Assembly: GCF_003148625.1 (NCBI RefSeq)
Contig: NZ_QGGO01000005.1
Span: forward strand, 1 to 64,000
Direction: 5' to 3'
DNA: 64,000 nt
Source of the DNA: Arcicella aurantiaca
GTDB lineage: Bacteria; Bacteroidota; Bacteroidia; Cytophagales; Spirosomataceae
Shown here piece after piece: positions 3,242 through 28,516 of the stretch. Within the stretch, counting starts at the first letter, position 1; each line of letters begins with the position of its first letter. Below the pieces are notes generated by a model. It was not told the origin of the DNA and searched no databases. It worked only from the letters and a program-made list of their open reading frames with translations. A program made the translations under genes and the position numbers.

Positions 3242-6082
3242 TTATCTTGAAAGATAAAGATTACGTTCTCCATAAACTTTTCTGAAGAAATCATCTTTTA
3301 ATGAGTCAATAAAGTAAATGGCTTCACCTGTTGATTTCATCTCTGGTCCTAATTCCATATTTACATTCGGGAATTTGTTGAATGAGAATACTGGAATTTT
3401 GATTGCCCATCCATGTTTCTTTGGTTGGAAATTGAAATCTTTTACCTTCGCTCCCAACATCACTTTTGTAGCATAATTCACGTAAGGCTCTTGGTAAGCT
3501 TTACAAATAAATGGTACTGTACGAGAAGCACGTGGGTTAGCTTCGATAATATAAACGATTTCGTCTTTTACAGCAAACTGGATATTTAGTAAACCTTTAG
3601 TTTTTAAGGCTACAGCAATTTTACGTGTATGTTCTTCGATTTGGCGAATTACATTCTCTGATAAATCAAATGGAGGAAGTACCGAGTGCGAGTCACCTGA
3701 GTGAATACCTGCTGGCTCGATATGCTCCATGATTCCGATGATATATACATCTTCACCGTCACAAATGGCATCTGCTTCTGCTTCGATAGCATTTTCTAAG
3801 AAATGGTCAAGCAAAATTTTATTTCCTGGAATATCTCTTAAAATATCTACTACGTGTTGCTCTAATTCTTGTTCGTTGATAACGATTTTCATTGATTGCC
3901 CACCTAATACATAAGAAGGACGAACCAACAATGGATAACCTAATTGACGACCTAATTCTACGGCATTATCAGCATCTTCACAAACACCAAATTTAGGGAA
4001 AGGAATTTCGTTATCTCTCAACAATGCTGAGAATGCACCTCTATCTTCTGCTAAATCAAGGGCTTCAAATGATGTTCCTATGATTTTGATACCGTATTTT
4101 GATAATTTTTCCGCCAATTTCAATGCCGTTTGTCCACCCAACTGTACGATAACTCCTTCTGGTTTTTCGTGCTGAATGATGTCGTAAACGTGTTCCCAGA
4201 AAACTGGCTCGAAATATAATTTATCCGCAATATCAAAGTCTGTTGAAACAGTCTCAGGGTTTGAGTTAATCATAATTGCCTCATAACCTGCTTCTTTGGC
4301 TGCCAAAATACCGTGTACACATGAATAGTCAAATTCAATACCTTGTCCGATACGGTTTGGTCCTGAACCCAAAACAACAATTTTTTTCTTATTGGTTGTT
4401 ACTGATTCATTATCTAATGTCTCAGAACCTTGCGAGAATGTTGAATAGAAATATGGTGTTTTCGCTTCAAATTCTGCCGCACAAGTATCTACACATTTAT
4501 AAACACGTTTGATGCCTAAGTTATTACGTTTGTCATAAACCTCCGACTCCATACAACGAAGTGTATAGGCAATCTGGCGGTCAGCAAACCCTTTATGTTT
4601 GGCTTCTTCTAATAATTCAGTTGGAATTGTATTGATTGAATATTTCTCCATTTCATTTTCAACTCTAACTAAATCTTCTACTTGGTATAAAAACCATCTG
4701 TCTATTTTAGTTGTCTGCTGAATTGTTTTGAAAGAAATACCCAATTTGAAAGCATCGTAAATATGGAAAAGACGATTCCAAGAAGGATTTGCCAATGAGT
4801 GCATAATGGCGTCTTGGTCACGAAGACCTTTCCCATCTGCTCCCATTCCGTTACGCTTAATTTCAAGTGATTGACAAGCTTTTTGAAGTGCCTCTTGGAA
4901 GTTACGACCAATACCCATTGTTTCACCTACCGACTTCATTTGTAAACCTAAAGTCTTATCAGCTCCTTTAAATTTATCAAAGTTCCAACGTGGTACTTTT
5001 ACGATAACATAGTCAAGTGCTGGCTCAAAAAATGCCGAAGTTGAACCTGTAATAGCATTTGTCAATTCATCTAAGTTATAACCGATTGCCATTTTAGCAG
5101 CAATTTTCGCAATTGGATAACCCGTTGCTTTTGAGGCTAAGGCAGATGAACGAGATACACGTGGGTTAATTTCGATGGCGATGATTTCGTCAGTCTCTGG
5201 ATTTAATGAGAACTGAACGTTACAACCACCTGCAAATTGACCAATAGCATTCATCATTTTAATTGCCATATCACGCATTTTCTGATAAATGGTATCAGGT
5301 AAAGTTTGTGCAGGGGCAACCGTAATTGAGTCTCCTGTGTGGATACCCATTGGGTCAAAGTTCTCGATAGAACAAATGATAATTACGTTTCCTAAATTAT
5401 CACGTAATAATTCTAATTCGTATTCTTTCCAACCCATAATTGACTGCTCTACCAATACTTCATGTGTTGGCGATGCGTGCAAACCTTTGTTAAGGGCTGC
5501 ATCAAAATCTTTAGGGTCATGAACAAAACCTCCACCAGTTCCACCCAAAGTAAATGAAGGACGAATTACTAATGGAAAACCTGTTTCTTGAGCAATTTCT
5601 TTTCCTTCCAAAAATGAGCGAGCTGTACGTCCTTTACAAACACCCACGCCAATCTCAATCATTTTCAAACGAAATTTCTCACGGTCTTCCGTAGTTTCGA
5701 TAGCTTTGATATCTACCCCAATAATCTCAACACCGTATTTTTTCCAAACACCTGCTGCATCACAGTCGATAGCTAAATTTAATGCCGTCTGACCACCCAT
5801 TGTTGGTAAAACGGCATCAATTGGCATTCCTTCTGCTTGGTGTTTTTCTAAGATTTCGATAATTGAATTTTTATCGAGGGGCTTCAAATAAACGTAATCG
5901 GCATTAAGGGGGTCAGTCATGATAGTTGCTGGATTGGAATTTATCAAGGCAACCTTGATACCTTCTTCACGCAACGAACGAGCCGCCTGAGAACCTGAAT
6001 AATCAAACTCGCAAGCCTGACCGATGATGATTGGACCTGAACCGATAATAAGAACGGACTTAATAGAAGTATTCTTTGGCAC
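3242..6082 (-). CDS. carB: Carbamoyl-phosphate synthase large subunit, lacking the allosteric domain
   Basis: CarB makes carbamoyl phosphate from bicarbonate, ammonia (from glutamine via CarA) and two ATP, feeding pyrimidine and arginine synthesis in the cytoplasm. Both homologous halves are clear. The first begins VLIIGSGPIIIGQACEFDYS near residue 9 and the second VLGSGPNRIGQGIEFDYS near residue 570; each has an ATP-grasp core with NPR-type motifs (EINPRVSRSSAL, EANPRASRTVPF). The protein is 946 residues against about 1073 in E. coli. It ends soon after GPEMKSTGEAIYFIDSLK, just where the MGS-like domain that binds UMP and ornithine in the E. coli enzyme would begin. The stop is followed at once by a terminator, so this looks like the natural end. 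carA is not adjacent; it lies at 26498. Confidence 0.97.
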   Translation of the reverse strand: MPKNTSIKSVLIIGSGPIIIGQACEFDYSGSQAARSLREEGIKVALINSNPATIMTDPLNADYVYLKPLDKNSIIEILEKHQAEGMPIDAVLPTMGGQTALNLAIDCDAAGVWKKYGVEIIGVDIKAIETTEDREKFRLKMIEIGVGVCKGRTARSFLEGKEIAQETGFPLVIRPSFTLGGTGGGFVHDPKDFDAALNKGLHASPTHEVLVEQSIMGWKEYELELLRDNLGNVIIICSIENFDPMGIHTGDSITVAPAQTLPDTIYQKMRDMAIKMMNAIGQFAGGCNVQFSLNPETDEIIAIEINPRVSRSSALASKATGYPIAKIAAKMAIGYNLDELTNAITGSTSAFFEPALDYVIVKVPRWNFDKFKGADKTLGLQMKSVGETMGIGRNFQEALQKACQSLEIKRNGMGADGKGLRDQDAIMHSLANPSWNRLFHIYDAFKLGISFKTIQQTTKIDRWFLYQVEDLVRVENEMEKYSINTIPTELLEEAKHKGFADRQIAYTLRCMESEVYDKRNNLGIKRVYKCVDTCAAEFEAKTPYFYSTFSQGSETLDNESVTTNKKKIVVLGSGPNRIGQGIEFDYSCVHGILAAKEAGYEAIMINSNPETVSTDFDIADKLYFEPVFWEHVYDIIQHEKPEGVIVQLGGQTALKLAEKLSKYGIKIIGTSFEALDLAEDRGAFSALLRDNEIPFPKFGVCEDADNAVELGRQLGYPLLVRPSYVLGGQSMKIVINEQELEQHVVDILRDIPGNKILLDHFLENAIEAEADAICDGEDVYIIGIMEHIEPAGIHSGDSHSVLPPFDLSENVIRQIEEHTRKIAVALKTKGLLNIQFAVKDEIVYIIEANPRASRTVPFICKAYQEPYVNYATKVMLGAKVKDFNFQPKKHGWAIKIPVFSFNKFPNVNMELGPEMKSTGEAIYFIDSLKDDFFRKVYGERNLYLSR

Positions 6083-21621: not shown

Positions 21622-24021
21622 TTATCTATTAATGATAATACGTTTTGCTAAATCAAAACCTGATGCTTTAAAACGAAGCATATATTCACCTTCTGGTTGG
21701 TTTCTTAAATCAACAATTAATTTACCTTTAATAGAAGGAACAGTTCCTGTATAGATTAATCTTCCTAAAAGGTCATAAATAATAATTTCTGGATTCTCAT
21801 AATCTGCTAAAGTTTCAATCGTTAACAAACCATTACTTGGGTTTGGATAAATTGATAAACCTTTGAAATCTGGGTCTTCTTTGAAATTAAATGGTTTTAC
21901 AAAATCAGAGAAACAAGCTAATGTATTAGTTGGAGCTGGTACTGTGAAAACTGTTTTTCTACGAGCTGTATAATCTCCATAACGATTTGCTTTGATAACA
22001 CCTTCTGTAAATTTCAATACTTCTGTACCATATTTCCATTCATAATCTGTTCCGTCTGGAAAGTTCACCGCTTTCAACGTAAACGTACCATCTTTATCAA
22101 TACTTGAAGCCGAAACATCTGGGTTATTTTTCACAACAATTACCAAAGGAACTGATTTTGAAGAAATACAACCTGTTGTTGCATCTTTTGCAGTAGCTGT
22201 ATATTCTCTTGAAATATCTATAAATTTACCGTCTGCACCGATTGCTGTTAATGTTAATGTTTTAGCTACTAAACCTGTACTCCAAGTTACCACATTTTGA
22301 CTTGTTGCAATTAGATTAACGCTATTAGGTTTTGTATAGTCAGCATTACTTCTCGCACAGAATACCAATGGGCCATCTGCTGTAACTGTTGGAGCTGGAG
22401 GCAATGGTAATGCAATCGTAGAAATAGGGTCTGACGCTGGCGACAAACAGTTGCGAGGGTCAAGCACACGAACTGTAAATGTTGCAGAAGTCTTAACTGT
22501 TAAAGATTTTGTTGAGTCTGTTGTACTCCAACGGTAACGAGTTTTTTCTCCGTTTATTAAATCAGAAGAAGTTAAAACAACACTTTGGTCAGCACAGAAT
22601 GAAAGTGGTCCACTTGCTGTAATTGTCGGTTTTGCAGGCAAAGCATAAACGGTAACTTTTACAATGTCTGAAGTTGGAGAAAGACAGTTATTTACGTCTC
22701 TAACTGCAACAGTAAAGTCTCCCGAAGTATTCACGTTAATTGCACGTGTTGTTGCTTTGGTACTCCAAATATAAGTTGTGTTAGGAGTTGATGTTAAATT
22801 AACACTTCCACCACTACAAAATGCGATTGGACCATCAGCAGAAATAACAGGTTTTGCAGGCAATTTGAAAACAGTAATCGTTGTTGTATCAGAAGGCTTA
22901 GAAACACAACCACTTGTATCTATTACTTGCACAGCGTATTTGCCAACGGCTGAGATATTTCTGATACTTGGTGTAATGGCACCGTTACTCCACTTATACT
23001 TAAATCCTAAACTTGATGTTAAAGAAAGCGTATCACCTTGGCAAATAGCAGCTCCAGTTTTAGAAGGAGTAATTACAGGTTTTGCAGGAACTCTTAACGC
23101 TCTTACAGAAACAACATCTGACAAAGGTGATTTACAACTCAATCTTGTTCCAATAGCTAATGCTTGAATTTTAGCCGTTTTATTGAAGAATTTTATAAAA
23201 CTTTTTGAACCTAAGCTATCTTGTTTAGTACCATTTACATACCATTCGTATTTAGTTACAAATTGTGTTGAATCTGATTTCAAAGAAATTGATTTATCCT
23301 CACAAAATGTACTATCACTTGCCGTAACTTTCGGTTTTGGTACTGAGAAGAACTCTGCATAAACTTGTCCTTGTGCATACACACGAACACTCGGACAGTC
23401 AGGAGATGTCACAGAAAGGAAATAATATCCAGATTTGGTAACTTTTAATTCTGGAGAACCTTGTCCTTTGGTTGACTCATCAATTAAATATCCATAGGTA
23501 GTTTGAGAAATACCTCTCTCCCATGAATAGATATATTTTGAATCTGTTACACTTGATTTTAAAGTTATCGTCTCACCATCACAAACAGTAGCTTTATCTT
23601 GAGCAATGAATGGTTGAGCACTTGGAGCTGCCAAATATCTAATGAAAAGACTTTGTGAACGTGGGCTTTCTTCTCCAAATTCAGTACAAGTGGCAGAAAC
23701 AACCATGTCATTTGTAACATCTAAATATTTTAAATCTGAACTTGGTAGATTTCTTCCAAGATTAGCTCCATTCGAGTCATACCATTGGATAAATCCATTG
23801 CCACAACCTTTTGCTTGAAGAATAGCAGACATTCTGGCATCTCCAGCCGCTTGATAACCACATCTGTCCACACCTAAGTATGCAACAGCTGGTGCTGCAG
23901 GAGGAATTGCTACCGAAGTTGTTTTTTTAGAAGTCGGAGTTTCGTTTCCTTTCGCCCATACAGATACAGACGTTGCAACGAATAAAAGGACTAAAAAAAT
24001 CTTATGAGTAAGGTTGTTCAT
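21622..24021 (-). CDS. Ig-like-repeat surface protein with type IX sorting domain
   Basis: A 799-residue exported protein with signal peptide MNNLTHKIFLVLLFVATSVSVWA. The middle contains at least five Ig/PKD-like repeats of about 80 residues, recognisable by the block ITADGPLAFCxGxSVxLTSS, then YxWSTxATTRxIxV and VRDxNNCLSPxSD. The last ~80 residues are a type A T9SS C-terminal domain (LSIYPNPSNGLLTIETLADYE ... IYDLLGRLIY ... LRNQPEGEYMLRFKA ... KRIIINR), which directs export through the type IX system and anchoring to surface lipopolysaccharide. It is probably an adhesive or structural surface protein. Confidence 0.88.
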   Translation of the reverse strand: MNNLTHKIFLVLLFVATSVSVWAKGNETPTSKKTTSVAIPPAAPAVAYLGVDRCGYQAAGDARMSAILQAKGCGNGFIQWYDSNGANLGRNLPSSDLKYLDVTNDMVVSATCTEFGEESPRSQSLFIRYLAAPSAQPFIAQDKATVCDGETITLKSSVTDSKYIYSWERGISQTTYGYLIDESTKGQGSPELKVTKSGYYFLSVTSPDCPSVRVYAQGQVYAEFFSVPKPKVTASDSTFCEDKSISLKSDSTQFVTKYEWYVNGTKQDSLGSKSFIKFFNKTAKIQALAIGTRLSCKSPLSDVVSVRALRVPAKPVITPSKTGAAICQGDTLSLTSSLGFKYKWSNGAITPSIRNISAVGKYAVQVIDTSGCVSKPSDTTTITVFKLPAKPVISADGPIAFCSGGSVNLTSTPNTTYIWSTKATTRAINVNTSGDFTVAVRDVNNCLSPTSDIVKVTVYALPAKPTITASGPLSFCADQSVVLTSSDLINGEKTRYRWSTTDSTKSLTVKTSATFTVRVLDPRNCLSPASDPISTIALPLPPAPTVTADGPLVFCARSNADYTKPNSVNLIATSQNVVTWSTGLVAKTLTLTAIGADGKFIDISREYTATAKDATTGCISSKSVPLVIVVKNNPDVSASSIDKDGTFTLKAVNFPDGTDYEWKYGTEVLKFTEGVIKANRYGDYTARRKTVFTVPAPTNTLACFSDFVKPFNFKEDPDFKGLSIYPNPSNGLLTIETLADYENPEIIIYDLLGRLIYTGTVPSIKGKLIVDLRNQPEGEYMLRFKASGFDLAKRIIINR

Positions 24022-24482
24022 AATTAATAATATTTGGATAAGAATTTTTAGGTTAAGATTGATGCCAAAATACTCAGCGTAACTATTACAATAATAATTG
24101 ATTTTGCCAGAATGATTTTGACCAAATCAAAACTTTATCAAATGACAAGTAAATTTAAGATAAGAACGGCTATAAACCATACAAAAGTGTTCAAAGTTTT
24201 TAAACGGTCAGTTCTTTTTTATGATAATATATTTAACTAAAAAAAACCAAAAAAGTATAAGTCATTGATATAAAGCCACTTAACATGTTTACTATTTTTT
24301 CATTACTAAGATTAGTTATTTCATAGACGGTTTTCTACTAAAAAGGGTTGTCTGAACTTAATAAAAATATGCTTGTGAGGGTCAAACAATTGAAAAATAT
24401 CGAAGCATTAAGCATCTAATATTACTTTTGATGTATTATCTTTGAAAACTATTAATCATTTTATATTTTTTATAACAATTCT
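24022..24482. other. Divergent intergenic gap
   Basis: 461 bp of AT-rich sequence between the surface protein and the acyl-CoA ligase, with no ORF and no clear repeat. A TATCTTTG match to the Bacteroidota -7 consensus at 24437-24444 could start the ligase mRNA 40 bp before its ATG, but no -33 box is visible. Confidence 0.5.
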
Positions 24483-26135
24483 ATGAATATTCGTAGATTA
24501 CCATCAGCAAGCAACGCATTTAAGTATCCATTACTTATTAAAAGTATTTTGGCATATTCTGTAATGTTAGAGCCAGAAAATGAAATTGTTTATAAAGACC
24601 AAGTAAGATATAACTATTTTGAACTAAATCGTCGGGTAAGAAAGCAAGCTAATGTTTTTAAAAAATTAGGCTTAGATGGCGGACAAACGATTGCTGTTTT
24701 AGATTACGATTCTCACCGATATTTGGAAGCCTTTTTTGGCGTTCCCATGACAGGCAATGTGCTTCATACTATCAATTGGCGTTTATCTCCTGTTCAAATT
24801 CTTTATACCATTAATCATGCTGAAGATGTTGTAATTATTTGTCATTCAGACTTTTTGCCTTTATTAGAATCGTTGGCAAAAGAAATGAAAACGGTAAAAA
24901 GTATCATCGTTTGTGCTGATGGAGGTGAATATTCAAAAAGTCCTTTACTACCAATTATTGGTGAATATGAAGAGCTTTTAGCAGAAGCATCTGATGAATA
25001 TGATTTTGAGGATTTTGATGAAGATGCCGTTGCTACAACCTTTTATACAACGGGTACAACTGGAAACCCAAAAGGAGTATATTTTACGCATCGTCAATTA
25101 GTTTTGCATACGCTTTCGGTTGGACTAACTTTTAGTGCTATCGACGGGGCTTGTAGATTTAACAATTCTGATGTTTATATGCCACTAACCCCCATGTTTC
25201 ATGTTCACGCATGGGGTTTTCCATACGTGGCAACATTATGTAATACAAAACAAGTTTATATTGGTAAATTTGACCCCGAAACGGTTTTAAAGTGTTTTGT
25301 TAAAGAAAAACCGACTTTCTCGCATTGTGTTCCGACTATCTTGCAAATGTTTGTCTCGCACCCTGCTACTCAAAATATTGACCTTTCTAAATGGAAAGTG
25401 GTCATTGGAGGTTCAGCTTTACCGAAAGCTCTGGCAAAAGCGGCAATATTAAGAGGAGTTGATGTAATTACAGGTTATGGAATGTCTGAAACTTGTCCAA
25501 TTTTATCAACTGTTTATGTGAGTCCGAAAGACAAAATAAATCCCGATGTTGATTTTCAAGTGGAAGCACGTACACGTTCGGGTACACCTGCCATGTTTGT
25601 AGATTTACGTCTGTTAGATGATGAAGGTAAAGTAGCTCCGAAAGACGGAGAAACCATCGGAGAAGTAACTGCCAGAACTCCTTGGTTAACACAAGGCTAT
25701 TATAATGAACCTCAAAAATCAGAAGAATTATGGTTTGATGGTTGGCTACATACAGGTGATGTGGCAACAATGAATGAAAATAATTCACTGAAAATTACCG
25801 ATAGAATAAAAGACGTTATCAAATCAGGAGGCGAATGGGTAAGTTCAATTGATTTAGAAAATATCATTGGACAACACGAAGCCATACAAGAAGTTGCTAT
25901 TGTGGGGATTCCAGATGCCAAATGGGGAGAACGCCCGCACGCAATGATTGTTCTGAAAGAAGGGAAAAGTTTAACAAAAGACGACCTAAAAGCTTTTATG
26001 CAACGCTATGTAGATGACAAAACCATTACGGCTTGGACAATTCCGAGTTCAGTAGAGTTTGCCGTTGCCATTCCGAAGACTTCTGTTGGTAAAATTGACA
26101 AAAAAGTTATCAGAGCAACCTTGTTGACTCAGTAA
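24483..26135 (+). CDS. Long-chain fatty-acid--CoA ligase (AMP-binding family)
   Basis: A 550-residue adenylate-forming enzyme that activates fatty acids to acyl-CoA via acyl-AMP. The phosphate-binding motif TTFYTTGTTGNPKGVYFTH lies near residue 190, followed by YGMSETCPIL near 330, GWLHTGDVATM near 420 and the hinge ITDRIKDVIKSGGEWVSS. The C-terminal catalytic Lys is in PKTSVGKIDKKVIR. Length and motifs match the medium/long-chain group typified by the Thermus thermophilus enzyme. The chain-length preference cannot be set from the sequence. It is a single-gene unit with its own terminator. Confidence 0.9.
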   Translation: MNIRRLPSASNAFKYPLLIKSILAYSVMLEPENEIVYKDQVRYNYFELNRRVRKQANVFKKLGLDGGQTIAVLDYDSHRYLEAFFGVPMTGNVLHTINWRLSPVQILYTINHAEDVVIICHSDFLPLLESLAKEMKTVKSIIVCADGGEYSKSPLLPIIGEYEELLAEASDEYDFEDFDEDAVATTFYTTGTTGNPKGVYFTHRQLVLHTLSVGLTFSAIDGACRFNNSDVYMPLTPMFHVHAWGFPYVATLCNTKQVYIGKFDPETVLKCFVKEKPTFSHCVPTILQMFVSHPATQNIDLSKWKVVIGGSALPKALAKAAILRGVDVITGYGMSETCPILSTVYVSPKDKINPDVDFQVEARTRSGTPAMFVDLRLLDDEGKVAPKDGETIGEVTARTPWLTQGYYNEPQKSEELWFDGWLHTGDVATMNENNSLKITDRIKDVIKSGGEWVSSIDLENIIGQHEAIQEVAIVGIPDAKWGERPHAMIVLKEGKSLTKDDLKAFMQRYVDDKTITAWTIPSSVEFAVAIPKTSVGKIDKKVIRATLLTQ

Positions 26136-26160
26136 AATTTTATATAAATGCTTGATTACT

Positions 26161-26197
26161 TAAACCTTGCTCGGATTCTGAGCAAGGTTTTTTGTTT
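26161..26197 (+). terminator. Terminator after the acyl-CoA ligase
   Basis: AAACCTTGCTC pairs with GAGCAAGGTTT over an 8-nt loop followed by TTTTTGTTT. Confidence 0.85.
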
Positions 26198-26207
26198 GTC
26201 GAAATAA

Positions 26208-26239
26208 TTTGTCAAAAAATCATTTATCCCCTATCTTTG
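26208..26239 (+). promoter_or_regulatory. Promoter of the carA leader transcript
   Basis: TTTG at 26208-26211 and TATCTTTG at 26232-26239 are separated by 20 bp, close to the Bacteroidota promoter consensus TTTG-N19-21-TAnnTTTG. Transcription should begin near 26244, about 25 nt before the leader ORF. Confidence 0.75.
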
Positions 26240-26269
26240 CAGTGTTAATTAAAAATTAAAAAATTAGAA

Positions 26270-26344
26270 ATGTACAAAAACTGGAAAAAGACCGAAGATT
26301 TCCCTTCTCAGAAGGTCGCTTTCTCGTTTTTAATAATATTTTAG
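26270..26344 (+). CDS. Candidate 24-residue leader peptide upstream of carA
   Basis: An ATG-initiated ORF of 24 codons lies between a strong promoter and a strong terminator. Its second half is T-rich and encodes VAFSFLIIF; the stop TAG overlaps the first bases of the terminator stem. This is the layout of pyrimidine attenuators such as E. coli pyrL-pyrBI, where UTP-dependent pausing in a U-rich leader couples a ribosome to polymerase and blocks the terminator. That it works this way here is an inference. The peptide itself resembles nothing I know, and the ORF could be accidental on a small RNA. Confidence 0.5.
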   Translation: MYKNWKKTEDFPSQKVAFSFLIIF

Positions 26345-26373
26345 GAGGTCAAATTCATTGACCTCCTTTTTTT
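26343..26373 (+). terminator. Leader terminator (candidate attenuator) upstream of carA
   Basis: A perfect 10-bp stem AGGAGGTCAA / TTGACCTCCT with a 5-nt loop runs into seven more T. It lies about 125 bp before carA on the same strand and overlaps the stop codon of the leader ORF. Confidence 0.85.
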
Positions 26374-26497
26374 AGAGGTATGAGGTAGAAGGTAGAAGGT
26401 AGAAGGCAATAAAATAAGCAAAATCACTTGTAACTATTGTTCTAAAACCCAAAACCTAAAACCCAAAACCTATTACTTACATAAAAAGCAAGGATAA

Positions 26498-27595
26498 ATG
26501 AAAGTAACACAAAGCCAACCAGCTATTTTGTTGTTGGAAGACGGTACAGTTTTTAAAGGAAATGCCCTCGGCAAAATCGGAACACACGGCGGAGAAATTT
26601 GCTTCAATACAGGTATGACGGGTTATCAGGAAATTTATACTGACCCTTCTTATTTTGGTCAAGTTGTTGTCAATACTACTTCTCACATCGGGAATTATGG
26701 CGTTGTTGAAGATTTGGAAGCAGAATCTTCTTCTGTGAAAATTTCAGGAATGGTTTGTAATGAATTTTCTCCTATCCATTCTCGTAAAACTGCCGACGAT
26801 TCTCTTCAAAATTATTTTGAAAAAGCTGGAATCGTAGGTATTTCAGGCGTTGATACTCGTCAAATTGTACGTCATATCCGTGAAGCAGGTGTAATGAATT
26901 GCATTATTTCTTCTGAAATTTTAGACGTAGAAGAATTGAAGAAAGAATTGGCAAAAGTTCCGCCAATGGAAGGTTTAGAATTGTCTTCGCAAGTATGTAC
27001 GCAAGAAACTTATTTCTTGGGAAATCCAGATGCTGAAAAGAAAGTAGCAGTTTTAGATTTAGGAGTTAAGAAAAGCATTTTGAGCAACTTAACGGATAGA
27101 GGTTGTTATTTAAAAGTATTCCCTGCTAAGACTTCTTTTGAAGAAATGAAAGCTTGGAACCCAGATGGTTACTTTGTTTCTAATGGCCCTGGCGACCCTG
27201 CGGTAATGCCTTACGCTGTTGAAACGGTTAAACAAATTGTTGATGGAAATAACCCAACGTTTGGTATTTGTTTAGGACACCAAATTTTGGCACAAGCGTC
27301 TGGACTTTCAACCTATAAAATGAAAAACGGACACCGTGGTTTGAATCACCCAGTGAAAAATTTAGTTACTGGATTGTCTGAAATTACTTCTCAAAATCAT
27401 GGTTTTGCTGTGAAAATGGAAGAATTAAAAGCAGCTTCAAACGTAGAGTTGACACACATAAACTTAAACGACCAAACGGTTGAAGGTTTACGTAGAACTG
27501 ACAAGCCTGCATTCTCGGTACAACACCACCCAGAAGCATCTCCGGGGCCACACGATTCACGTTATTTGTTCGACAATTTCGTTGGAATGTTATAA
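26498..27595 (+). CDS. carA: Carbamoyl-phosphate synthase small (glutaminase) subunit
   Basis: CarA hydrolyses glutamine and passes ammonia to CarB. The 365-residue protein has the N-terminal CarA domain (LLLEDGTVFKGNALG, GEICFNTGMTGYQEIYTDPSYFGQ) and a class I amidotransferase domain. The catalytic Cys lies in FGICLGHQILAQASG; the His-Glu pair is in VQHHPEASPGPHDS. The ATG at 26498 is preceded by AGGAT, one of the few SD-like sequences in the window. The gene is likely controlled by the leader at 26208-26373. Between the leader terminator and the start codon lie short-word repeats (GGTAGAA three times, then AAAACCC/AAAACCT). Confidence 0.97.
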   Translation: MKVTQSQPAILLLEDGTVFKGNALGKIGTHGGEICFNTGMTGYQEIYTDPSYFGQVVVNTTSHIGNYGVVEDLEAESSSVKISGMVCNEFSPIHSRKTADDSLQNYFEKAGIVGISGVDTRQIVRHIREAGVMNCIISSEILDVEELKKELAKVPPMEGLELSSQVCTQETYFLGNPDAEKKVAVLDLGVKKSILSNLTDRGCYLKVFPAKTSFEEMKAWNPDGYFVSNGPGDPAVMPYAVETVKQIVDGNNPTFGICLGHQILAQASGLSTYKMKNGHRGLNHPVKNLVTGLSEITSQNHGFAVKMEELKAASNVELTHINLNDQTVEGLRRTDKPAFSVQHHPEASPGPHDSRYLFDNFVGML

Positions 27596-27685
27596 CAGGG
27601 GTTAGGGGCTGGGTTTTAGGATTTAGTTAAATTGCTTAGATATTTTGCTTGACAACTAAATCCTAAAAAACATCCCCTTATTTAT

Positions 27686-27860
27686 TAGACTTCCTGCGAA
27701 GGTGTTTTAAGTCGTAAAACAACATCTTTTCGGCTACAAATAGCGAAATTTTTTCAAGATTGGGCATCCCCCCATTTCTCTGCTATGCTTTCAAAATCCC
27801 CGCTATTTTCACTCGAAAATATACCATTTTTCAATCATAAAACACTTTCGCAGAAGTCTA
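27686..27860. mobile_element. MITE, complete copy 2 (175 bp), abutting the mnmD-like start codon
   Basis: The same element as 21387-21548, with slightly diverged ends (TAGACTTCCTGCGAAGGTG on the left, one base missing on the right) and an internal replacement around 27756-27778. It is flanked by the 4-bp direct repeat TTAT (27682-27685 and 27861-27864). The right-hand duplication supplies the A and T of the ATG at 27863. Confidence 0.85.
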
Positions 27861-27862
27861 TT

Positions 27863-28516
27863 ATGGAAAGATTAAGAATTACGGACGATGGTTTTACCAC
27901 GTTGTATAGCTCTGAATTTGGGCAATTTTACCATTCTGTTCGTGGTGCAATGGCTGAAACTCAATTAGTTTACATTGACTTAGGATTATTAGCTAAAGCC
28001 CAAGAAATCAAAGAGATAAATGTTTTAGAAATAGGCTTTGGTACAGGCTTAAATGCTTTGGTAAGTGTTTTAGAAGCTCAAAAACACGATTTAAAACTTC
28101 ATTATACCACACTTGAACCCTTCCCAATTTCAAATGATGATGTGCAACTTTTGAATTATCAAGATGAATTGCACACGCAAATATTAAAAAATCTTCACGA
28201 AGCAAAATGGGAAGAAGAAGTGGAAATAAACTCCAATTTCTACTTAACAAAAATCAAGACAACTTTACAGAATTTTTCATCTAATAAACTTTTTGATGTA
28301 GTTTATTATGACGCTTTTGCCCCATCGTCTCAACCAGAACTTTGGACAGAAGAAACATTTGCAAAAGTGGCTTCTGTGATGCAAAAAGGCGGTTTTTTAA
28401 CCACTTATTGTTCAAAAACGGTAGTTAGAAAGGCTATGCAGGCGGCAGGTTTTATTGTTGAGAAACACCAAGGAATGTGGGGAAAACGAGAGGTGGTTAG
28501 GGCGGTTAAGGGGTGA
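27863..28516 (+). CDS. mnmD: MnmD-like tRNA U34 methyltransferase
   Basis: A 217-residue SAM-dependent methyltransferase matching the methyltransferase half of MnmC, which finishes 5-methylaminomethyl-2-thiouridine at the wobble base of tRNA. Key blocks are RITDDGFTTLYSSEFGQFYHSVRGAMAET, the SAM site VLEIGFGTGLNAL, and YYDAFAPSSQPELWTEETF, with GMWGKREVVRA at the C-terminus. It lacks the FAD oxidase half, as is common outside enterobacteria. I start it at 27863 because the family begins here; the frame is open upstream only through the MITE. The original 5' leader appears to have been replaced by that element. Confidence 0.85.
   Translation: MERLRITDDGFTTLYSSEFGQFYHSVRGAMAETQLVYIDLGLLAKAQEIKEINVLEIGFGTGLNALVSVLEAQKHDLKLHYTTLEPFPISNDDVQLLNYQDELHTQILKNLHEAKWEEEVEINSNFYLTKIKTTLQNFSSNKLFDVVYYDAFAPSSQPELWTEETFAKVASVMQKGGFLTTYCSKTVVRKAMQAAGFIVEKHQGMWGKREVVRAVKG

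Follow-up and report, generated by a model that had tools for sequence, protein, structure and literature searches.

Is carA, which encodes the small subunit of carbamoyl-phosphate synthase, controlled in Arcicella aurantiaca by a ribosome that follows RNA polymerase along a short leader? Ribosome-coupled transcription attenuation is known mainly from Proteobacteria, and a preliminary description of this locus had proposed a pyrimidine-type attenuator with a leader peptide upstream of the gene, naming a stand-alone small RNA as the alternative. Here, we present a computational analysis of the locus, located in a 64,000-nucleotide stretch of contig NZ_QGGO01000005.1 (hereafter the window), and of its counterparts in related genomes.

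Architecture of the carA leader

The carA leader comprised the following parts:

26208..26239, + strand: promoter TTTG-N20-TATCTTTG of the Bacteroidota type (TTTG at 26208-26211, spacer of 20, TATCTTTG at 26232-26239)
26244..26373, + strand: predicted attenuated leader transcript, deduced from the promoter and the terminator
26270..26344, + strand: leader ORF of 24 codons, ATG to TAG, MYKNWKKTEDFPSQKVAFSFLIIF, open in 8/8 genomes
26313..26342, + strand: U-rich tract by its T fraction, candidate pause region, directly before the terminator
26343..26373, + strand: intrinsic terminator with a 10-bp stem, a 5-nt loop and a U tract, its arms invariant in 8/8 genomes
26498..27595, + strand: carA, carbamoyl-phosphate synthase small subunit, the presumed controlled gene (TIGR01368, PF00988, PF00117)

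The coordinates initially given for the promoter, the 24-codon ORF with its U-rich last third and the 10-bp stem lying over the stop codon were all correct, and the predicted transcription start at 26244 follows the rule that places TAnnTTTG at -12 to -5, as worded in a section of PMC9723704. The stem is formed by the arms AGGAGGTCAA (26343-26352) and TTGACCTCCT (26358-26367) around the loop ATTCA, with a hairpin energy of -14.9 kcal/mol in the studied genome and of -15.8 or -15.9 kcal/mol in the other seven genomes of the genus. The perfect stem and the T7 run (26367-26373) that had been announced are both present, but the first T is also the last paired base, which leaves six T beyond the stem. 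The terminator is one-directional, with no T run after the stem on the complementary strand. Within the 30 nt adjoining the stem on its 5′ side, T content was 0.53, versus 0.25 earlier in the studied leader. The UAG stop codon (26342-26344) shares its last two bases with the start of the stem, and is thereby overlapped by the AGGAGGU of the 5′ arm, which is also Shine-Dalgarno-like. This heptamer (26343-26349) represents a perfect Shine-Dalgarno core, invariant in the eight genomes. Such sites are seldom used in the phylum; Bacteroidota ribosomes mostly ignore them, according to excerpts of PMC9976891.

The carA product scored 451.7 bits to TIGR01368 for a cut-off of 307.35, and carB lies apart from it, about 20 kb away on the minus strand (window 3302-6082). 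Downstream of the terminator, window positions 26374-26470 carry GGTAGAAGGT-/GGTTGGGGAT-like runs followed by rough complements, as do the regions preceding pyrB and carB in this genome, possibly a widespread intergenic inverted-repeat family.

Compared with shuffled sequences, the 128-nt stretch 26246-26373 folded at z -4.97, a value equalled by 0 of 200 shuffles, and the studied leader deprived of its terminator at z -2.2, equalled by 7 of 500. ORFs of at least 18 codons ending between -12 and +3 nt of the stem arose in 51 of 2000 shuffles of the studied leader, and in 2.5-9.7% of 2000 dinucleotide shuffles per leader when all eight leaders were considered; such an ORF can be obtained by chance in A+T-rich DNA. 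The ORF layout of a single genome being only mildly unlikely, its evidential weight lies in its conservation in 8/8 genomes. A simple terminator scan of positions 24000-28000 remained at chance level, with 3 terminators found for 2.8 expected from shuffles.

Conservation within the genus Arcicella

The promoter-ORF-terminator unit was recovered once per genome in all eight Arcicella genomes (the studied one included), each time upstream of carA and on its strand, CarA itself sharing 93 and 96% protein identity with two records labelled Arcicella sp. Promoter layout was identical throughout, with a spacer that was largely conserved as well, and the promoter-to-stem distance ranged from 100 to 117 nt. 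Mean pairwise identity across the eight genomes was highest in the terminator (0.94), followed by the 32-nt promoter (0.88) and the leader (0.69, with 0.43 in the least similar pair). As yardsticks, fourfold sites of carA gave 0.51, the 100 nt preceding the promoter 0.36 and the 40 nt that follow the terminator 0.34. Identities so far above those of the fourfold sites and flanks indicate an element under selection, the terminator most of all. The U-rich tract was likewise kept: in 8/8 genomes the 30 nt preceding the stem have a T fraction of 0.50-0.57, versus 0.20-0.26 in the rest of the leader. Conservation of the ORF, the U-rich tract and the terminator upstream of carA, which the attenuator proposal had predicted in relatives, was thus observed in every genome of the genus; the covarying stems that were also anticipated did not appear, as the arms are identical in all eight genomes and leave no covariation to count.

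The terminator pattern GGAGGTCAA-loop-TTGACCTCCTTTTT occurred in 9 of 200 family genomes, namely the eight genus members and 1 of the 192 others, with a single copy per genus genome that was always located at the carA unit. Within the genus, a DNA search returned only one further match, short and weak (G000, 34 nt, E 8e-4). As a control, the terminators detected downstream of carB with a simple finder, in the small sample of five of seven genomes, displayed four different sequences (G052 and G077 being alike). The same finder retrieved terminators after carA in 1/8, after pyrB in 1/8 and after hisB in 1/7 genomes, too few to compare.

A conserved leader ORF

The leader ORF spans 20-36 codons depending on the genome, and its stop ends between -9 and +2 nt relative to the stem in 8/8 genomes, despite frame-shifting single-base indels at its 3′ end. 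Seven genomes start at an ATG in a common position, while G036 uses upstream in-frame ATGs. The peptide core W(K/E)xx(E/K)D(L/F/S)P(S/F)xK(G/V) is common to the relatives. Across the 15 core codons, a pN/pS of 0.47 and 6, 8 and 11 variable columns at codon positions 1, 2 and 3, respectively, give weak support to a possible selection on the leader peptide. None of the eight peptides contains an arginine or control-codon run. An origin of the ORF from hisB was also envisaged from the likeness between the HisB C-terminus of the own genome (LPSTKGVL) and the leader of G105 (EDLPSTKGIL), a weak model match; it was rejected as unsupported, given that the hisB tails of seven genomes have no longer stretch in common (by eye).

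Position relative to carA and neighbouring genes

In three genomes (G105, G097 and G036), only 42-43 nt separate the 3′ arm of the terminator from the carA start codon, a gap without any TAnnTTTG and too short for a usual promoter, so that transcription of carA probably passes through the terminator. The gap extends to 130 and 148 nt in G000 and G052, which could leave room for a further promoter, and one TAnnTTTG lies inside that of G052. In G088, G077 and G065, the terminator is located about 600 nt before carA with an additional ORF between them, so that the control of carA is less direct there. This intervening ORF matches the nuclease-like Pfam family PBECR3 in G088 (L070:2438-2884) and is similar in G077 and G065. 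The 115 nt that follow the PBECR3 ORF in G088 contain, on the other strand, a small conserved promoter-like stretch, an ORF of 11 codons (by eye, MRDLLKYMALV in G088) and a hairpin resembling a terminator, for which no Rfam match was obtained.

The gene before the unit is an acyl-CoA ligase in three genomes, the studied one included, and a different gene in each of the other five (by eye). In G105, the gene divergent from the unit (L005:732-1460) is presumably, by eye, a uridine kinase of pyrimidine salvage; this possible neighbour is restricted to G105, the neighbours differing in the other genomes.

Distribution beyond the genus

Searches with a covariance model of the unit (R1) among 100 carA loci (80 named records and 20 family loci) gave strong matches only in three Arcicella-type records (L070, L071 and L072), together with a match in G028, which belongs to another genus (30.7 bits, E 0.019, truncated where the contig stops), and four further matches with E 0.47-0.92. 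A terminator of -14.4 kcal/mol lies directly before carA in G028, with GGGGGGTCAA versus TTGACCTCCT. Applied with stricter filters to 291 genomes of the order, the same model returned only the own copy as strong, and seven others with E 0.014-0.060, none with carA in its locus; no other genus member appears among these matches, and hence none was present in that draw. A DNA search of 200 family genomes with E up to 10 produced weak matches in every genome, among the matches listed, and carA was found in only one (G028) of the 22 weak-match loci kept (L010-L031). Over the whole window, Rfam gave 0 matches at gathering score and nothing credible at a permissive threshold.

Outside the genus, carA resides in different contexts. 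The genera represented by G001, G037, G066 and G010 place it behind rplQ (by eye) with a promoter of its own; it closely follows rplQ and a terminator in five Aquirufa/Spirosoma/Larkinella/Fibrella-type records (L075, L082, L084, L086 and L088), and is preceded by a gene that differs from rplQ in G005 (Pseudarcicella). These contexts, along with the R1 searches, make the unit seem a local invention. Conservation across Cytophagales, which the initial proposal had envisaged, was not found: it stops at the limits of this genus, save for a similar terminator in a single genome of a different one.

Two observations concern the carA genes of these relatives. Ten of the 80 named records (L075-L077, L079, L082 and L084-L088, from Aquirufa, Spirosoma, Fibrella and Larkinella) display a terminator 27-42 nt before carA, leaving little promoter room, and an rplQ-like gene precedes this terminator in the five that were checked (by eye); carA may live on read-through there too. 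At seven other loci, from sister genomes (L040-L045 and L047, from G001, G037, G053, G066, G078, G010 and G005), the TAnnTTTG of carA is followed by CAT(A/G)ATTTTTTAACC, a start that we retain as a lead, being a candidate for UTP-sensitive reiterative transcription and a possible ancestral theme. The pattern TANNTTTGN5T6 was not clearly commoner than its reversed control in nine genomes, and a gene that by eye resembles glycogen synthase is preceded by the same start in 4 of the 6 stretches retrieved.

A probable ribosome-controlled attenuator and its alternatives

We favour, with moderate confidence, a cis-acting and ribosome-controlled transcription attenuator of carA, with a leader ORF and UTP as the inferred signal. 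The attenuator step is its firm part and appears likely: the leader-ORF attenuator first suggested for carA is supported by conservation in 8/8 genomes and by the kept linkage with carA. The weaker part is the nature of the signal: UTP is a tentative proposal by analogy, to which we give slightly less than an even chance and which fits the U-rich tract.

In this attenuator, RNA polymerase would slow in the U-rich tract ahead of the terminator. A closely following ribosome at the stop codon would then cover the 5′ arm, preventing the hairpin and allowing carA to be transcribed, whereas a polymerase running ahead of the ribosome would let the terminator form and release a leader RNA of about 130 nt. 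UTP supply would set the polymerase pause, as in E. coli pyrBI, low UTP leading to carA expression. Termination in E. coli was reported to fall from about 90% to less than 10% when the stop codon was moved from 28 to 5 bp before the terminator, and efficient termination is possible within the first 100 bp of a coding region (both from portions of PMC4824070). With a stop codon within that effective range in 8/8 genomes, the 5′ arm would be masked by a ribosome that completes the ORF; and with an ORF of just 75 nt, termination would occur by default, the ribosome arriving in time only if the polymerase is delayed. A plausible UTP-dependent pausing site, by the same analogy, is the 30-nt stretch directly before the stem. 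The scheme would imply close transcription-translation coupling in Bacteroidota.

The most serious competitor, which we judge unlikely but worth retaining at about one chance in four, is a translation-coupled attenuator deprived of any pyrimidine sensor, whose read-through would track leader translation (ribosome supply, growth rate, starvation) and whose U-rich tract would merely be an A+T-rich approach to the terminator. A stop codon at the foot of the stem would indeed block termination whenever the ribosome is timely, the UTP signal is an indirect proposal, and the eight peptides are devoid of arginine or control-codon runs. However, the U-rich tract is kept in 8/8 genomes while the remaining leader has 20-26% T, and UTP control is to be expected for carA, an early pyrimidine step.

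We consider it distinctly improbable that the unit is a stand-alone small RNA or small-protein gene lying by chance before carA, the carA promoter being further downstream. The unit is complete with its promoter and terminator, bears a weak likeness to the Bacteroides sRNA GibS (25.3 bits versus a gathering score of 115, E 0.16) and is separated from carA by an extra ORF in three genomes. Yet its permanence upstream of carA although the preceding gene changes speaks against this alternative, as do the 42-43 nt gap devoid of TAnnTTTG in three genomes and the terminator pattern without a second copy in the genus.

Slightly less probable still is a direct role of the conserved parts themselves, with the peptide core (consensus NWKxxEDLPSxKG) as the sensor or, as a second option, AGGAGGU kept as a Shine-Dalgarno site. 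In the former case, the core would pause the ribosome near the end of the ORF on a pyrimidine/arginine metabolite, holding it on the terminator; in the latter, ribosomes using AGGAGGU, rare in the phylum, would compete with the terminator.

PyrR-dependent attenuation, in which, as in Bacillus, the leader RNA would be bound by PyrR together with UMP to promote termination, is very unlikely. The genome does encode a PyrR homologue (NF003549, 178.9 bits versus a cut-off of 138) in the pyrB locus, and a homologue precedes pyrB in 7 of 8 genus genomes, the contig of G088 beginning at pyrB. Nevertheless, no PyrR site was found in the leader, the RF00515 match (17.9 bits versus a gathering score of 54) falling at 26150-26197 on the terminator of the upstream gene; no antiterminator competes with the stem, and the terminator belongs to the minimum-energy fold in 8/8 genomes. 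Furthermore, the residues H22, R27 and R146, on which RNA binding by B. subtilis PyrR depends, align with Q, N and N, in alignments to related or reconstructed PyrR chains rather than to that of B. subtilis. Among the pyrR loci compared (including L178, L174, L175, L179, L180 and L181), pyrR starts 6 nt behind a TAnnTTTG box in six of the seven genomes, which leaves no room there for such a leader, the distance being 45 nt in G036; judging from these starts, the pyrR mRNA is probably leaderless or nearly so.

Finally, a classical amino-acid attenuator or a structured riboswitch with an alternative antiterminator hairpin is the least probable of all, for although pairing between CCUUC/CCUUU of the ORF and GGAGG of the terminator is possible in 8/8 genomes by eye and the leaders of G000 and G036 fold at z -2.2 and -2.8 (7 of 500 shuffles being as good in each), the remaining six leaders reach only 0.0 to -1.3, 0 of 19 tested pairs covary, covariation staying at shuffle level with none in the predicted consensus (8 related sequences, small power), the mean upstream-pairing probability of the 5′ arm is merely 0.06-0.36, and no peptide has a control-codon run. 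A leader hairpin between the A-rich ORF start and the U-rich tract was likewise not supported, with no covariation.

Implications of a probable carA attenuator in Bacteroidota

No carA attenuator from Bacteroidota was found among the titles and abstract openings listed, a corpus beyond which most subscription journals lie; within that literature, the view that carA attenuation was undescribed in the phylum holds. Leader-peptide attenuation is itself known, and its lineage-restricted form at carA seems to be what is new. If the favoured attenuator is true, ribosome and polymerase run close enough in Bacteroidota for gene regulation, and the unit offers a small testable reporter of transcription-translation coupling in this phylum. 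It would also mean that carA gained a new control in a genus where its position behind rplQ is lost, several relatives keeping the rplQ-carA arrangement (by eye).

Comparison with known systems

The preliminary description had attributed to the leader the same layout as E. coli pyrBI with its leader peptide PyrL. The order of the parts matches, with a promoter, a leader ORF, a T-rich stretch, an intrinsic terminator and a short gap to a pyrimidine gene, but the relation between ORF and terminator does not: pyrL (44 codons) runs through the terminator, whereas the Arcicella ORF (20-36 codons, with conserved core residues) stops at the foot of the stem in 8/8 genomes. In addition, the gene controlled is carA in Arcicella and pyrB in E. 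coli.

The E. coli carAB operon encodes the same enzyme and combines two promoters, repressors and reiterative initiation, one of its controls being UTP-dependent reiterative transcription and attenuation not being involved at P2, according to parts of PMC6245113. Arcicella differs by its candidate attenuator and by the lack of a T run at the predicted start. In the same phylum as Arcicella, strong clues for leader-peptide attenuation were reported at amino-acid operons of Flavobacterium psychrophilum, where the leaders precede such operons and carA is absent from the main text (portions of PMC9723704), and sORFs reminiscent of leader peptides were described in Bacteroides thetaiotaomicron (portions of PMC7366714). 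PyrR attenuation of Firmicutes (RF00515) also acts on pyrimidine genes, and Arcicella encodes a PyrR homologue, but its leader carries an ORF, with neither a binding site nor an antiterminator found.

The arginine attenuator peptide of fungi is encoded by a short conserved uORF before CPA1/arg-2, the gene of the carbamoyl-phosphate synthase small subunit. Its ORF is similar in size to that of Arcicella, while the fungal system is eukaryotic, translational and based on arginine-dependent stalling. Should the peptide core of Arcicella act as a sensor, the unit would represent a bacterial counterpart of this fungal peptide, at the same enzyme.
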